A stretch of DNA of 64,000 bases. Source: Ramlibacter alkalitolerans. GTDB lineage: Bacteria > Pseudomonadota > Gammaproteobacteria > Burkholderiales > Burkholderiaceae_C. The DNA lies in contig NZ_JAEQND010000003.1 in the NCBI RefSeq assembly GCF_016722765.1, positions 372,001-436,000 on the forward strand, given 5' to 3'. The notes under the pieces were generated by a model, which was not told the DNA's origin, did no database searches, and saw only the letters and a program-made list of their open reading frames with translations. This document shows positions 20,877 to 26,850 of this stretch, piece by piece. The position numbers and the translations under genes were made by a program. How positions within the stretch are numbered: the stretch's first letter is position 1; every line of letters begins with the position of its first letter.

Positions 20877-22223
20877 ATGGCCTCAGCCATCATCGACTCG
20901 CGCATCTTCGGCGACATGTTCAGCGACGCGCGCATGCGCGAGGTGTGGTCCGACGAGAACCGGACTTCGAAGTACCTCGACATCGAGCGCGCCCTGGCCA
21001 AGGTGCAGGGGGCGCTCGGCATCATCCCGAAGGAAGCCGCCGCCGAGATCGTGAAGAACTGCGAGCTGTCGCAGATCGACTGGGTCAAGCTCAAGGCGAA
21101 AACCGAGCAGATCGGCTACCCCATCATCGCCGTCGTCAACCAGATCAACGCCAACTGCAGGGACGGGCTGGGCGAGTTCTGCCACTGGGGCGCCACCACC
21201 CAGGACATCACCGACACCGCGACCGTGCTGCAGATCCGCGAAAGCCTGGCGCTCGTGGAGCAGGACCTCGACGAGATCGGCGACGCGCTGGCAACGCTGG
21301 CGCGCAAGTACCGCGACACGCCCATCATCGGACGCTCCAACCTGCAGCAGGCCACGCCCATCACCTTCGGCTACAAGATGGCATCCATCCTGGCGGGCAT
21401 CGACCGGCACCGGGAGCGACTGCAGCAGCTCAAGCCGCGGGTGCTCGTGGGCGAGTTCGGGGGCGCCTCGGGAACGCTCTCCTCGCTGGAACGGGGCGCG
21501 ATGGAGACCCAGGCGGCGCTGATGAAGGAGCTGGGCCTCGCGCAGCCCCTGATCTCCTGGCACACGGTGCGGGACACCATCGCCGAAGTGGGCGCCTTCC
21601 TGGGGCTGGTGGGCGGCTCGCTCGGCAAGATCGCGATGGACGTCAAGCTGTTGATGCAGACCGAAGTCGCGGAAGTGTTCGAACCCTTCGCGCCCGGGCG
21701 CGGCTCGTCCTCCACGATGCCGCAGAAGCGCAACCCCATTTCGTGCCTGTACATCCACGCCAACATCTCCGTCGCGCGCCAGCACGCCGCCGCGCTGATG
21801 GACGCCATGGTGGCCGACCACGAGCGGTCCACCGGGCCCTGGGAGATCGAATGGGTGGCGCTGCCGGAGATCTTCTGCCTGATGTCCGGGGCGCTGAAGC
21901 AGGCGAAGTTCGTGCTCAAGGGACTGGAAGTCGACGCCACGCGCATGCGCGCGAACATCGACATGACGAACGGCCTCGTCATGTCGGAGGCGGTCATGAT
22001 GGGCCTGGGTCCCTACATCGGCCGTGAGTACGCCCACGACTTGGTCTACGACCTCTGCCGCCAGGCCCTCACAGAGAACCGGCCGCTCATCGAGATCCTG
22101 GCCGCCCACCCAGAAATTTCGAAGCACGTCACCCGGGCCCAGCTCGACGGGTTCTGCGATCCCGGCAAGAACCTGGGCCAGGCCGGCGTGATGGTCGACC
22201 GCGTGCTTGCCCACCGCGGCTGA
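20877..22223 (+). CDS. Adenylosuccinate lyase / 3-carboxymuconate cycloisomerase (PcaB)-like lyase
   Basis: 448-aa member of the fumarase/aspartase superfamily. It carries the signature GSSSTMPQKRNPIS, the upstream helix motif HWGATTQDITDTATVLQIRE, and WHTVRDTIAEVGAFLGLVGG. It resembles PcaB and adenylosuccinate lyases more than fumarase, but no purine or protocatechuate genes are nearby. In this operon it more likely cleaves or cyclises a dicarboxylate substrate shared with the isomerase, hydratase and CoA-transferase. The exact reaction is unknown. Confidence 0.82.
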   Translation: MASAIIDSRIFGDMFSDARMREVWSDENRTSKYLDIERALAKVQGALGIIPKEAAAEIVKNCELSQIDWVKLKAKTEQIGYPIIAVVNQINANCRDGLGEFCHWGATTQDITDTATVLQIRESLALVEQDLDEIGDALATLARKYRDTPIIGRSNLQQATPITFGYKMASILAGIDRHRERLQQLKPRVLVGEFGGASGTLSSLERGAMETQAALMKELGLAQPLISWHTVRDTIAEVGAFLGLVGGSLGKIAMDVKLLMQTEVAEVFEPFAPGRGSSSTMPQKRNPISCLYIHANISVARQHAAALMDAMVADHERSTGPWEIEWVALPEIFCLMSGALKQAKFVLKGLEVDATRMRANIDMTNGLVMSEAVMMGLGPYIGREYAHDLVYDLCRQALTENRPLIEILAAHPEISKHVTRAQLDGFCDPGKNLGQAGVMVDRVLAHRG

Positions 22224-22545: not shown

Positions 22546-22896
22546 ATGAGCGCAAATGCAGTCCTTTTCGGCTGGAACCGGTCTCTCCCCGGGCGCGAGC
22601 AGTTCAGCGCAGCCCACTTCCAGGATTTCAGCGCCTACCTGCAGCAGCAGGTTGCCGCCGGCACCGTGGAGTCTTTCGAGCCCGTGCTCATCGAACCCCA
22701 TGGGGGTGCGTTCAACGGCTTCTTCCTGATCAAGGGGACGCCCCATCAATTGAGCACGCTCACCGGCTCACCGGACTGGGTGCAGCACCTCATTCGCGCC
22801 GACCTTCACCTGCAAGGCGCATCCGTCCTGCGGGGGGTCGTGGGCACGGCGGTGACCGAGCGCATGGGGATGTGGGTCCAGGCCCTGCCCAAGTAG
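22546..22896 (+). CDS. Conserved small hypothetical protein (116 aa)
   Basis: Unknown function. The start ATG 22546 has an excellent GGAGG 5-6 nt upstream. Visible are MSANAVLFGWNRSLPGREQF, LQQQVAAGTVESFEPVLIEP, GAFNGFFLIKGTPHQL and a C-terminal VTERMGMWVQALPK. The alternation of strands and helices is like small alpha-beta ferredoxin-fold (YCII/antibiotic monooxygenase-like) proteins, which is a guess from pattern. The last 129 bp overlap the 3' end of the convergent helicase gene. I see no signal peptide or membrane helix. Confidence 0.65.
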   Translation: MSANAVLFGWNRSLPGREQFSAAHFQDFSAYLQQQVAAGTVESFEPVLIEPHGGAFNGFFLIKGTPHQLSTLTGSPDWVQHLIRADLHLQGASVLRGVVGTAVTERMGMWVQALPK

Positions 22897-25173
22897 GCGG
22901 GCCTGCTGGGGCGCCTCCGGATCCATCCGCCACCACGCAGGCAGGAGCTCGCGGACGGCGCGCCGCGAAAAGCGGTCGTCGATCAGGACCACGATGCCAC
23001 GATCCTCGTGCGTGCGGATCACCCGGCCGGCGGCCTGCACCACCTTCTGCAAGCCCGGGACGAGGTACGCATAGTCGTAGCCTGCGCCGAAGAGCGTGTC
23101 CAGGCACGCCCGCAGCTGCTCGTTGCGGGCGTTCACCTGTGGCAGTCCGAGCGTCGCGACGAACGCGCCGACCAGCCGGTCGCCGCGCAGGTCGATGCCT
23201 TCGCCGAAGCTGCCCCCGAGCACGGCGAAGCCGACGCCGGCGCCGCCAGGAACGAATCGCTCCAGGAACTCCCGGCGCTGGCCCTCGTCCATGCCCCGGG
23301 CCTGCTCCCACACGGGAACGTCTGGGTGGCGGCGGCGGAATTCGGATGCGACCAGCGCCAGGTAGTCGAAGCTGCTGAAGAACGCGAGGTAGTTGCCCGG
23401 AGCGGCGTGGTATTGCCGCCCGATGAGACCTGCAATCGGTTCGGCAGATGCTTGCCGGTGGCGATAACGCGTGGAGATCGAGCTCACCACCTGCACCTGC
23501 AGCTGATCGGGCCTGAAGGGGGACTCCACGTCCATCCACACCGTGTCCGCGGGCAGGCCCAGCAGGTCGATGGCGTAGCGCGGCGGACTGAGCGTGGCGG
23601 AAAAGAGGGTGACGGTGCGCGCGGCCGCCAGGTGCGGCCGCAGGAACGGGGCGGGCACCAGGTTCTGGATGCGCAGGGTGCCCGATGGCCGGCCGCGCGG
23701 CACGACCTCCTCCTCCAGCTCCAGCACGGAATGCGAGCCGAAGCTCTCGGCGCGCCGGACGAACGCGAGCAGGTCGAAATAGAACTGCTGCAGCCCGCTG
23801 GTGTCGCCCCCCTGGTGGGGCGTCGCCTCGGCGAAGTGCGCCTCCAGGGCCTCGGCCGCGTGTTGCAGCGCCGCGACCAGGGCGGAGGGCAGCGCGGCCA
23901 CCGGTGCGGCGGCCTGCACCCGCCGCATTGCGTTCCAGTGCCGGTTGACGCGGTCGAAAGCGGTGCGCACAGGCGCCGGCGCGCCGATGCGCGCGCTGCG
24001 CAGTGCCGACTGCGTCAGCGAAGCCGAGTACATGGCCCGCGCGCGCTCGACCAGGTTGTGCGCTTCGTCCGCGAGCACGCCGACGTTCCACTCGTTGGCC
24101 ACCGTCAGCGCGTGCAGCAGGGCGCTGCCGTCGAAGTAGTAGTTGTAGTCTCCCACGACGAGGTCTGCCCACTGCACCAGTTCCTGCGCCAGGTAGTACG
24201 GGCAGACCTCGTGCGCGAGCGCGATGCGGCGCAGCGTCGCCGTGTCCATCGGGCCGGCGATGGCTTGCGCGCGTGCCGCAGGCAGGCGGTCATAGAAGCC
24301 GCGGGCCAGGGGACACGATTCCCCGTGGCAGGCCTTGTCGCGATGCTCGCAGGCCTTGTCGCGCGCCGTGATTTCGACGACGCGCAAGCGCGCGGGCCCT
24401 GCGCCGCGCACCAGCAGCGCAGCGGCGTCGAGCGCCAGCTGCCGGCCCGTCGACTTCGCCGTCAGGTAGAAGACCTTGTGCAGCCCGTACCGCGGCGCCG
24501 CGCGCAGCATGGCGAACAGCGTGGCCACCGTCTTGCCGATGCCGGTGGGGGCCTGGGCCAGCACGCAGCGGCGGGTGGCAGCCCCCTTGTAGACGGCCTC
24601 GGCGAGCTCGCGCTGGCCCTGGCGGAAGGATGCGTGAGGGAAGGGCAGCGTGGACAGGAGCTGGTCGCGTGCTTCGCGGTGCGCCAGTTCCTGCCCCGCC
24701 CAGGCGAGGAATGCGGCGCACCGCGCCTCGAAGAAGCCGCGCAGTTCTTCCGCCGAGTGCGTCTCCACCAGGATCGTCTCCTGGCCGGAGCGCAGGTCGA
24801 AGTAGACCAGTGCGACTTCCAGGCTCGCCAGCCCGCGTTCCCGGCACAGCAGCCAGCCGTAGACCTTGGCCTGCGCCCAGTGCAGTGCACGATGATTCGC
24901 CGGCTGCCGCGCCAGGTCGCCCCGGTGCGTCTTGATCTCCTCGAGGCGGTTGCGTGCCGGGTCGTAGCCGTCCGCCCGTCCGCGGACCGTGAGCTGCTCG
25001 AACTCGCCGCGCAGGGGGATCTCGGTCTCATAGCCGCTGCCGCGCCGTGCGGCCACTTGCTGGTGCCCCGCGATGCCTTCCTGCGCCGTCGGTGCCGGGG
25101 TGAACCGCAGGTCCAGGTCCCCGGCCTTGGCAGTGAATGCGCACAAGCTGCGGACCGCCACTGAATACTGCAT
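22768..25173 (-). CDS. PD-(D/E)XK nuclease-fused Rad3/DinG-type DNA helicase
   Basis: 801 aa from ATG 25173. The N-terminal part carries a Cas4/RecB-like nuclease motif set: TVRGRADGYDP (D68), LEEIKTHRGD (E79, K81) and HWAQAKVYGWLL (Q101, Y105). The helicase part has Walker A AQAPTGIGKT (207-215 region), four cysteines for an Fe-S cluster (C275, C282, C287, C324), DEAH at 369-372, and the C-terminal VPGLQKVVQAAGRVIRTHED of XPD/DinG helicases. The family unwinds 5'-to-3' at damage or R-loops. ATG 25173 is chosen because codons further upstream are Arg/Pro-rich and do not resemble the family. Its 3' end overlaps the convergent gene by 129 bp. Confidence 0.88.
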   Translation of the reverse strand: MQYSVAVRSLCAFTAKAGDLDLRFTPAPTAQEGIAGHQQVAARRGSGYETEIPLRGEFEQLTVRGRADGYDPARNRLEEIKTHRGDLARQPANHRALHWAQAKVYGWLLCRERGLASLEVALVYFDLRSGQETILVETHSAEELRGFFEARCAAFLAWAGQELAHREARDQLLSTLPFPHASFRQGQRELAEAVYKGAATRRCVLAQAPTGIGKTVATLFAMLRAAPRYGLHKVFYLTAKSTGRQLALDAAALLVRGAGPARLRVVEITARDKACEHRDKACHGESCPLARGFYDRLPAARAQAIAGPMDTATLRRIALAHEVCPYYLAQELVQWADLVVGDYNYYFDGSALLHALTVANEWNVGVLADEAHNLVERARAMYSASLTQSALRSARIGAPAPVRTAFDRVNRHWNAMRRVQAAAPVAALPSALVAALQHAAEALEAHFAEATPHQGGDTSGLQQFYFDLLAFVRRAESFGSHSVLELEEEVVPRGRPSGTLRIQNLVPAPFLRPHLAAARTVTLFSATLSPPRYAIDLLGLPADTVWMDVESPFRPDQLQVQVVSSISTRYRHRQASAEPIAGLIGRQYHAAPGNYLAFFSSFDYLALVASEFRRRHPDVPVWEQARGMDEGQRREFLERFVPGGAGVGFAVLGGSFGEGIDLRGDRLVGAFVATLGLPQVNARNEQLRACLDTLFGAGYDYAYLVPGLQKVVQAAGRVIRTHEDRGIVVLIDDRFSRRAVRELLPAWWRMDPEAPQQARLLGQGLDPHPHALGHRRAHDPPQDGCALQVKVGANEVLHPVR

Positions 25174-25464
25174 CGGCCGATCGTAACTGGTGGCCGGCGC
25201 TCCTTGTCCAGACGGCTTTCGCGCCCTGGATGCCGGCGCGTTGCGCGTCAATCGTCGAGCCGCATGCCGCACGCGGTGAGACGCTCCAGTCGGCCGTCGG
25301 CGGGGGCGCAACGTCCTGGCTCTGGCGTCAGGGGTATTCGCCCAAGGCCAGGTGGGCGGCGTTTTGCGGCGGTGATGCAGCAGGCGTGATTGCTTCTCCT
25401 GCAGGGCGGATGTCTGCTTGCGGACAAAAGCGCAGTGACGGCGAAAGGCCCGCCCCGAAATGAC

Positions 25465-25498
25465 GCGGGCGCTGTCCACGAAGAGTGGAAGCGCCCGC
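25465..25498. terminator. Strong stem-loop downstream of the 15-codon ORF
   Basis: GCGGGCGCT pairs with AGCGCCCGC, and TCCAC pairs with GTGGA inside it, with a one-base bulge and the loop GAAGA. The total stem is 14 bp. On the minus strand the hairpin begins 20 nt after the stop of the small ORF and is followed by a short T-run (CATTT), so it is a plausible terminator for that unit. It is symmetric and could act for either strand. Confidence 0.65.
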
Positions 25499-25518
25499 GG
25501 GTCTGGTCGAGACCTTGG

Positions 25519-25566
25519 CTACATCACGTAGGGAAGATCCCTCTCGGACCAAGAGAATGAAGACAT
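25519..25566 (-). CDS. Candidate 15-aa small protein with near-perfect Shine-Dalgarno
   Basis: On the minus strand AAGGAGGTGAT (25567-25577) directly precedes ATG 25566. The 15 codons read MSSFSWSERDLPYVM and end in TAG. The ribosome site is complementary to essentially the whole 16S 3' tail, which is rare in this GC-rich genome. A hairpin follows 20 nt after the stop, so the unit looks like a self-contained small gene or a dual-function small RNA. No family is recognised. It might be a regulatory leader, but the next gene on that strand (helicase) begins about 350 bp away beyond the hairpin. Confidence 0.5.
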   Translation of the reverse strand: MSSFSWSERDLPYVM

Positions 25567-25646
25567 ATCACCTCCTTTCGTAGCTGCCAATGGACCTCCA
25601 TCCTACCTGAAGACAAAGGGGGCGAAGATCGCCGGGCGGTTCGCGC

Positions 25647-25692
25647 CTGTCACACCTGCTGTCACAGCCGCGTCCCGCAGTGACGCGGTGAC
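25647..25692 (+). promoter_or_regulatory. Candidate AcoR upstream activator sites
   Basis: CTGTCACA occurs twice (25647-25654 and 25659-25666, 12 bp apart). It is followed by two inverted copies of its core, GTGAC, at 25680-25684 and 25688-25692. The cluster is about 75-120 bp upstream of the candidate sigma-54 promoter, the usual distance for an enhancer-binding protein such as AcoR. The link to AcoR is inferred. Confidence 0.45.
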
Positions 25693-25763
25693 CAGACCGG
25701 TCCTGCGCCGCTCCCCCACCCGGCACGCGCCGCCGCGTGGGGCCGGCCTTCCGGGGCACCCGG

Positions 25764-25779
25764 TGGCATGGCTCTTGCG
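25764..25779 (+). promoter_or_regulatory. Candidate sigma-54 (-24/-12) promoter of acoXABC
   Basis: TGGCATGGCTCTTGCG matches the sigma-54 consensus TGGCAC-N5-TTGCW, with GG and GC spaced exactly 10 nt apart. Transcription would begin near 25790. A sigma-54 promoter is expected because the regulator AcoR encoded downstream is a sigma-54 activator. It overlaps the most upstream possible acoX start codon (25768), which argues for a later start. Confidence 0.6.
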
Positions 25780-25791
25780 CCGATGCCGCCC

Positions 25792-26850
25792 ATGTCACCG
25801 CCTGCCCTCGGCGTGATCGCGAATCCCGTGTCCGCACGCGACATCCGCCGGGTCGTCGCGCACGCGGGCAACCTGCAGATCAGCGAGCGGGTGAACATCC
25901 TCATTCGCGTGCTGCAGGCCGCGCGCGCTGCCGGCGTGGAACGCGCGCTGCTGATGCCCGATCGCGCCGGCATCCACGCGCTGCTCGAGCGGCACCTCCG
26001 GCGCGGCGACACGCAGTTGCCCTGCATCGAACTCCTCGACATGGAGCCGACGTCGACGGTGGAAGACACGTTCACGGCCACGCGCCTGCTGCAGCGCGCC
26101 GGCGTGGCTGCCATCGTCGTGCTGGGCGGCGACGGCACGCACCGCGCCGTGGTGCGCGAACTCGTGGCCAGCGCCGCCGCCGCCGCGTCGCTGCCGATTG
26201 CCGGCCTCTCCACCGGCACCAACAACGCCTTCCCCGAGATGCGCGAGCCCACGATCACCGGACTGGCGGCCGGCCTCTACGCCACCGGCCGGCTCGACGC
26301 GGGCGAGGCGCTGGTGCGGAACAAGCTCATCGAGGTGAGCATCCTGAACGGCAGGCGCACGCCGCGGCGCGACATCGCCATCGTCGACGCGGTGGTCACG
26401 CGGGACCGCACGGTCGGCGCCCGTGCGCTGTGGAAGCCCCAGTCGCTGGCCGCCGCCTACTTCGCCTTCGCGGAGCCCGAGGCGATCGGGCTGTCGTCCA
26501 TCGGCGGGCTGCTGGAGCCGGTGGGCCGGCACGAGCGCGGCGGCCTGTCGGTGCAACTGGCGACCGATGCGCGCCATGCGCTGCTGCACCTGAACGCGCC
26601 GATCGCGCCCGGCCTCGTGTGCCCCGTGGCCGTGGCGAGCTGGGAGCGCATGGTGGCCGGCGAGCCGCTGGCCGTGGGCGTCGAGGCCGGCAGCGTCGCG
26701 CTCGATGGCGAACGCGAACTGACCTTCGCTCCCGGCGACCGCGTGACGATGACCCTGCGCGAGGACGCCTTCCACACGCTCGACGTGAAGCGCTGCATGG
26801 CCGCAGCCGCGCGCGACGGGCTGCTGAGGACCCGCCTTTCCACCCCCTGA
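25792..26850 (+). CDS. acoX: AcoX, acetoin catabolism protein (NAD-kinase-like fold)
   Basis: About 352-aa protein of the ATP-NAD kinase-like AcoX family, first gene of aco operons in Cupriavidus-type bacteria. Motifs are GVIANPVSARDIRRVVAHAG, the nucleotide-binding GGDGTHRAVV, LSTGTNNAFPEMREPTITG and GLSSIGGLLEPVGRHERGG. Its biochemical role in acetoin use is not settled. ATG 25768, 25783, 25792 and GTG 25813 are all in frame and none has a good ribosome site. I give 25792 because a sigma-54 promoter at 25764-25779 would start transcription near 25790. It lies 18 bp before acoA. Confidence 0.85.
   Translation: MSPPALGVIANPVSARDIRRVVAHAGNLQISERVNILIRVLQAARAAGVERALLMPDRAGIHALLERHLRRGDTQLPCIELLDMEPTSTVEDTFTATRLLQRAGVAAIVVLGGDGTHRAVVRELVASAAAAASLPIAGLSTGTNNAFPEMREPTITGLAAGLYATGRLDAGEALVRNKLIEVSILNGRRTPRRDIAIVDAVVTRDRTVGARALWKPQSLAAAYFAFAEPEAIGLSSIGGLLEPVGRHERGGLSVQLATDARHALLHLNAPIAPGLVCPVAVASWERMVAGEPLAVGVEAGSVALDGERELTFAPGDRVTMTLREDAFHTLDVKRCMAAAARDGLLRTRLSTP

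Follow-up and report, generated by a model that had tools for sequence, protein, structure and literature searches.

A minus-strand unit with an extended ribosome-binding site

The window, a 64,000-nucleotide stretch of the Ramlibacter alkalitolerans genome, carries on its minus strand a compact unit made up of an extended Shine-Dalgarno (SD) sequence, a 15-codon open reading frame (ORF), and a terminator-like hairpin. The unit lies between a helicase gene and the gene for a protein that we take to be acoX-like, and a lyase gene lies beyond the helicase gene (Table 1). The best named relative of one neighboring gene, at 95% identity, also places the genome close to Ramlibacter.

Table 1. Features at the small-RNA locus and flanking genes, in window coordinates
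Feature	Position	Strand	Remarks
Lyase gene	20877..22223		All listed NCBIfam matches (models for pcaB, purB, and related proteins) below cut-off
Rad3/YoaA/DinG-like helicase gene	22768..25173	(-)	Below the cut-off of every NCBIfam model matched
Small RNA matched by covariance model R1	25463..25587	(-)	135.6 bits in window
Terminator-like hairpin, 9+5 bp with one bulged base	25464..25498	(-)	Followed by GTCATTT
Imperfect hairpin segment GGTC...GACC with apical CTAC/GTAG stem	25500..25550	(-)	Overlaps second half of ORF
15-codon ORF	25519..25566	(-)	Start ATG at 25566; peptide MSSFSWSERDLPYVM; stop TAG ending at 25519
Extended SD sequence AAAGGAGGTGAT	25567..25578	(-)	Complementary to 12 nt of the 16S gene, at its 3′ end
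-10-like box TAGGAT	25600..25605	(-)	TACGCT or TACCCT in most relatives
acoX-like gene	25768..26850		No NCBIfam match; next two genes match E1 alpha/beta subunit models

A preliminary description of this DNA had noted an ORF, 20 nt, and a 14-bp stem. We found that arrangement on the minus strand, with 20 nt between the stop codon and the terminator-like stem; a bulge divides the stem. The T run that follows the stem is weak here and in several members of the family described below, and a terminator scan did not score the stem as a terminator. No -35 motif was found upstream of the TANNNT box. Judging from the position of that box, the transcript probably starts ~5 to 8 nt 5′ of the R1 match. 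The 151-nt region folds with a z score of -2.6, and equally good folds were obtained in 2 of 200 shuffles. Overall, the unit looks like a small RNA gene that stands alone, its transcript predicted to measure ~130 nt.

The SD sequence (25578-25567) is complementary, over an unbroken stretch of 12 bases, to the 3′ end of the organism's own 16S gene (...GGATCACCTCCTTT; L194), where the position of the mature rRNA end is inferred from known 16S ends. A near-complete match to the anti-SD sequence had been described previously, and the site proved to be one base longer than was then thought. Allowing up to one mismatch, we found the 11-mer at 3 sites in the window, compared to 0.38 expected (0 of 100 shuffles reached 3); the only exact copy among these is the small-RNA site. 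The 12-mer occurs three times in the whole 5.7-Mb genome: in the 16S antisense, at the small-RNA site, and at one other position. The energy of the duplex with the 16S tail is -18.5 kcal/mol at the small-RNA site versus -3.0 to -13.9 kcal/mol at six nearby gene starts, in agreement with the earlier remark that neighboring genes have weaker ribosome sites.

Relatives of the element and the features they keep

A DNA search of 41 genomes returned two copies, a near-identical one in G023 (96%) and a partial one in G007 (77%). A pattern search (AAAGGAGGTGAT, 0 to 4 bases, TGTC) had matches in 8 of 299 family genomes, the organism's own included. From those 10 sequences we built alignment A1 and covariance model R1; the R1 score of the window locus is by construction, since the locus is among the model-building sequences. 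Searches with R1 used strict filters, which lose weak matches, and some of the genomes are incomplete. At the family level, 19 of 399 genomes matched at an E value of ≤0.01 and 17 were accepted, again including the organism's own; at the genus level, 5 of 60 matched and 4 were accepted. Matches were also obtained in 3 of 300 genomes of the order and 6 of 369 genomes of the class, with only the organism's own genome accepted in each case. The accepted set comprises 20 members from 9 genera (17 family genomes and 3 others of the genus); a 19-member alignment leaves out G712. Weak R1 matches without the combination of site, hairpin, and terminator-like stem were dropped by eye (G351 and G356 in the family, G720 in the genus, G537 and G557 in the order, and five at the class level), and opposite-strand matches to the palindromic terminator stem were disregarded. 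Because the element was found in few relatives (4/60 in the genus and 17/399 in the family), it is dispensable.

Plasmids and phages gave no match to the small RNA. One exact 18-mer in viral contigs was rejected; it opens a longer reading frame in DNA that is AT rich and phage-like. Also rejected was L112 (13 bits), the sole weak R1 match among 80 named loci of the upstream lyase gene.

All 20 members have a start codon (19 ATG and 1 GTG), preceded by a spacer that varies in both letters and length. With G-U pairs allowed, the site forms 12 of 12 pairs with the 16S tail in 16 members and 11 of 12 in the other 4; in three members an A-U pair has become G-U, and the anti-SD pairing is still kept. 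Since the R1 seeds were picked by their SD pattern, conservation of the SD sequence is partly ascertained. The 10 members found by the model alone form 12 pairs with the 16S tail in 6 cases and 11 in 4. In the folded free RNA, the SD sequence is mostly paired in most members (mean unpaired probability, 0.14 to 0.67 [n = 20]; 0.18 here), and the internal SD hairpin, at -6.6 kcal/mol, falls far short of the stability of the 16S duplex, at about -19 kcal/mol. Farther upstream, a TANNNT box lies 25 to 28 nt before AAGG in 19 of 20 members, compared to 0.33 expected from shuffles, and TAC[GC]CT is found in 14 of 20, compared to 0.01 expected, both patterns having been picked after the sequences were viewed. 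A short leader, often CAAC, separates the box from the site.

We compared the genes at the 20 loci using simple ORF calling in flanks of up to ~5 kb. No gene of the window locus recurs at any of the 19 other loci, which fits the earlier description of the element as its own unit. Three two-locus clusters were detected: two are same-genus pairs (G236/G373 and G374/G432), and the third consists of spurious frames across the RNA. The earlier suggestion of a translation-coupled sensor for a downstream gene is unsupported, because the window locus and the others have no neighbor in common.

A small protein had likewise been suggested. This fared poorly: pN/pS for codons 2 to 10 of 16 distinct strings was 0.98 (1.07 and 0.75 in the other frames), and indels have put the C-termini out of frame with one another (MSSFSWSERDLPYVM, MSSFSWSERDLPT, MSSISRSGTDPYVM, MSKTSRFGAEPYLL, and others). 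The N-terminal residues are often MS..S(R/W)S. The first in-frame stop falls at codon 12 to 23 in all 20 members, and at codon 12 to 15 in 18 of them. First stops in frames 1 and 2 are scattered from 0 to >90 codons, and those in frame 0 are far more tightly grouped (500 draws of one member from each of 9 genera; median Levene P = 0.0012). The stop lies within the hairpin segment in every member, and part of the constraint on it may come from a shared GTGATGTAG, which has stops in two frames. The preliminary description had made its case depend in part on conservation of the peptide in relatives; the peptide is not conserved, and the element is conserved as an RNA. Judged by these comparisons, the small-RNA locus is not a small-protein gene, and it is the translation of the short ORF, rather than its product, that seems to be under selection.

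When folded alone, the GGTC...GACC segment closes into a hairpin in 18 of 20 members (not in G373 or G391), with z scores from +0.2 to -4.2. The hairpin is present in only 10 of 20 full-length minimum free energy (MFE) folds and is absent from that of the window RNA, in which the closing pairs have a probability of 0.14 and the leader pairs with the apical region instead. In six members of equal length, all 11 hairpin pairs are 100% paired and 3 are changed on both sides (0 of 500 shuffles did as well), with the tested structure derived from those same six sequences and all three compensatory pairs coming from G382. Paired changes were also seen by eye in the apical stem (CTAC/GTAG, CCGAC/GTCGG, and CGACT/AGTCG). 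The RNAalifold consensus pairs the leader and SD sequence with the apical region, and the full-length fold of the window RNA partly agrees with it; we set this consensus aside because the middle of the alignment is poor. In one member (L144, from G373), a 32-nt tandem duplication of the ORF/hairpin start changes the reading frame, but a stop is still reached after 23 codons.

Comparison with CC2171 and with CU-rich small RNAs

Rfam 15 gave no matches in the window at the gathering score and only four unrelated families at relaxed E values. A relaxed Rfam scan of the G007 relative matched RF01867 (CC2171) with 24.2 bits (gathering score, 75; E = 0.069 over all families), and the 5′ ends of the G007 RNA and CC2171 are nearly identical. 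The full RF01867 model gave 6 matches of 12.9 to 18.1 bits in the organism's own genome, none of them at the small-RNA locus. At an E value of 0.001, RF01867 was found in 85 of 398 Pseudomonadota genomes, 13 of them above the cut-off, and in Caulobacter only among 14 controls. The 85 genomes are presumed to be alphaproteobacterial, since all lie outside the class of the window. No function is stated for CC2171/RF01867 in the accessible portions of the literature found.

We examined 30 of 90 CC2171 matches, most of them below the Rfam cut-off. In all 30 loci the site is present and the start codon (21 GTG and 9 ATG) lies 7 nt downstream of GGAGG. The first stop falls at codon 14 to 27 in the 30 loci and is scattered in the other frames (median P = 0.0014; one locus per family, n = 9), and pN/pS for codons 2 to 7 is 0.97. 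This constraint on ORF length was found here, in 30 loci, and lies outside Rfam's definition. Neighboring genes are common to at most 5 of the 30 loci. A sequence-only model, R2, built from the 30 CC2171 5′ ends, had the small-RNA site as its sole match in the window (E = 0.0015; model positions 8 to 31 of 46). R2 matched 15 of the 20 small-RNA members and, in a control set of 654 kb taken from 53 of the 80 lyase loci, gave no match at E values up to 10. Because the R2 match covers about half of the model, mostly the SD sequence, convergence is possible; the likeness of the two RNAs could reflect either common descent or convergence on the 16S tail, with the site carrying much of the score.

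Both RNAs have 5′ CAAC..GAAAGGAGGTGAT, a start codon, and then mostly TCT; in both, a short ORF that is constrained in length and free in peptide is followed by downstream sequence ending in a hairpin. They differ in that the start codon of CC2171 is mostly GTG and lies 7 nt after GGAGG, whereas that of the window family is mostly ATG and lies 4 to 6 nt after it. Moreover, the middle and 3′ parts of CC2171, in consensus sequence and structure, are not matched by the window RNA, and CC2171 is found in 85/398 Pseudomonadota genomes, compared to scattered members of one family for the window RNA. We read the window family, from these sequence features, as an undescribed betaproteobacterial counterpart of CC2171. 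It is unusual for two RNA families to conserve a start codon and an ORF length without the peptide. In both, the act of translation appears to be the function, and this signature suggests a testable function for CC2171. For small-protein annotation, the lesson is that a superb ribosome site in front of a tiny ORF does not necessarily signal a small protein.

RF02278 and Bordetella S17 resemble the window RNA in being small, intergenic betaproteobacterial RNAs with a terminator stem and a ribosome-binding-site (RBS) theme. They differ from it in carrying a CU-rich complement of the RBS, which is of the opposite sense. The RF02278 covariance model is not among the 4 matches obtained for positions 25400 to 25700 at E values up to 10. 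Elsewhere in the organism's own genome there is an RF02278 toxic-type sRNA above the cut-off (L121, G000:C3:193736-193800; 55.6 bits), along with two weaker relatives (L122 and L123; 34.6 and 28.7 bits). All three start with UGUCUCCUC, and the DNA upstream of them is not obviously alike. For S17, repression has been shown for one target, and matching sites lie close to the RBS in 70 affected genes (PMC11722255). Pairing of this type between sRNA and RBS is predicted in Burkholderia (PMC5688073), and a sponge for an sRNA family is known in Caulobacter (PMC12559287). ncS35 of Burkholderia is reported to be absent from other lineages. Further literature was drawn upon (PMC4603805, PMC5596092, PMC11701678, and PMC5760752). 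In the literature searched, outside which most subscription papers lie, we found no sRNA that pairs with the 16S end or bears a perfect SD sequence; the window family has no description in that literature or in Rfam.

Proposed ribosome capture and its rivals

Among the possibilities raised in the preliminary description was a small RNA that titrates ribosomes. Of the readings offered there, this one and that of a separate unit fit best, in that relatives retain the RNA rather than the peptide, along with its pairing to the anti-SD sequence; titration itself is a prediction. The conservation of ORF position and length without that of the peptide suggests that the catching of ribosomes matters. 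Capture by a decoy ORF is the mechanism that we prefer, as a tentative reading. In this mechanism, 30S subunits would bind the small RNA via an over-long SD:anti-SD duplex whose stability suffices to melt the weak internal SD hairpin. They would initiate on the start codon and leave at the stop 12 to 23 codons on, the peptide being a by-product. Whenever the RNA is induced, this capture would lower initiation on other mRNAs; alternatively, a captured 30S subunit might be a signal read by the RNA. Over-long SD duplexes slow the release of 30S subunits, and we consider slow release to fit capture better than it fits peptide output. The preferred reading is independent of the hairpin segment. A point against it is that titration requires many copies per cell. 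A fixed-length ORF would, moreover, be unneeded if capture alone mattered; therefore, translation may have another role.

If ribosomes are captured in this way, the window family and CC2171 may be two branches of one RNA kind. More doubtful, though conceivable, is the broader proposal that two proteobacterial groups have an ancient ribosome-capturing RNA, with an extended SD sequence and an ORF translated regardless of its peptide. Such an RNA would act as a decoy or as a gauge of ribosome availability, a translational counterpart of 6S RNA. 6S RNA is a decoy that mimics a promoter, and its target is RNA polymerase. The likeness is one of mode only, a decoy mimicking a substrate, which is a promoter for 6S RNA and would be a ribosome site for the window RNA; no sequence relation is claimed.

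It is also possible, if rather unlikely, that the element is a dual-purpose sRNA, in which a ribosome held on the 5′ end would shield the RNA from decay or control folding of the hairpin, and the 3′ part would regulate mRNAs. The retained ORF length, the stop inside the hairpin segment in 20/20 members, the competitive folding of the leader and hairpin segment, and the conservation of much of the 3′ half are all consistent with such a protective ribosome; a normal SD sequence would suffice for it, yet near-complete complementarity to the 16S tail is kept. We consider it unlikely that the GGAGGUG of the RNA serves as a sponge, soaking up CU-rich anti-SD sRNAs of the RF02278/S17 type that block the ribosome sites of mRNAs. 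Candidate partners are present, namely the RF02278 sRNA of the organism's own genome and its two weaker relatives. When the SD region was paired with the 5′ ends of these three sRNAs, however, the longest run was 8 nt, with energies of -13.6 to -15.2 kcal/mol, and the 16S tail pairs better (12 nt, -19.2 kcal/mol). The sponge retains some probability because longer stretches gave duplexes of -27.4 to -36.0 kcal/mol with six candidates (first 60 nt against whole sRNAs, internal folds ignored). A sponge could, on the other hand, dispense with both a start codon and an ORF of constant length.

A gene for a small peptide of 12 to 23 residues is improbable, given the pN/pS of 0.98 and the frame-shifting indels that alter the C-termini, even though the ribosome site is complete, the start codon is present, the ORF length is constrained, and the first residues often conform to MS..S(R/W)S. 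In outline, the combination of a short ORF and hairpins with competing folds is similar to a cis-acting leader or an attenuator controlling the gene downstream, which at this locus would be the helicase gene ~290 nt away. This we regard as very unlikely: a terminator-like stem follows the ORF, no gene of the window locus stands beside the RNA at the 19 other loci, and a flanking gene is common to two same-genus pairs only. Least credible of all is a chance ribosome site in an intergenic region. The element is short and the small-RNA gene is single copy in the organism's own genome, but 20 members from 9 genera keep the site, the start codon, and the ORF length, and 19 have the box.

In a DNA comparison of the 80 lyase loci, none had the helicase side in common with the window, and inspection of three close relatives by eye revealed no terminal inverted repeats or target duplications flanking the unit. 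G023, a near relative, has the helicase gene, acoX, and the small RNA on three separate contigs. With the helicase gene and acoX on different contigs there, the intergenic region at 25173-25768 may be a rearrangement junction.
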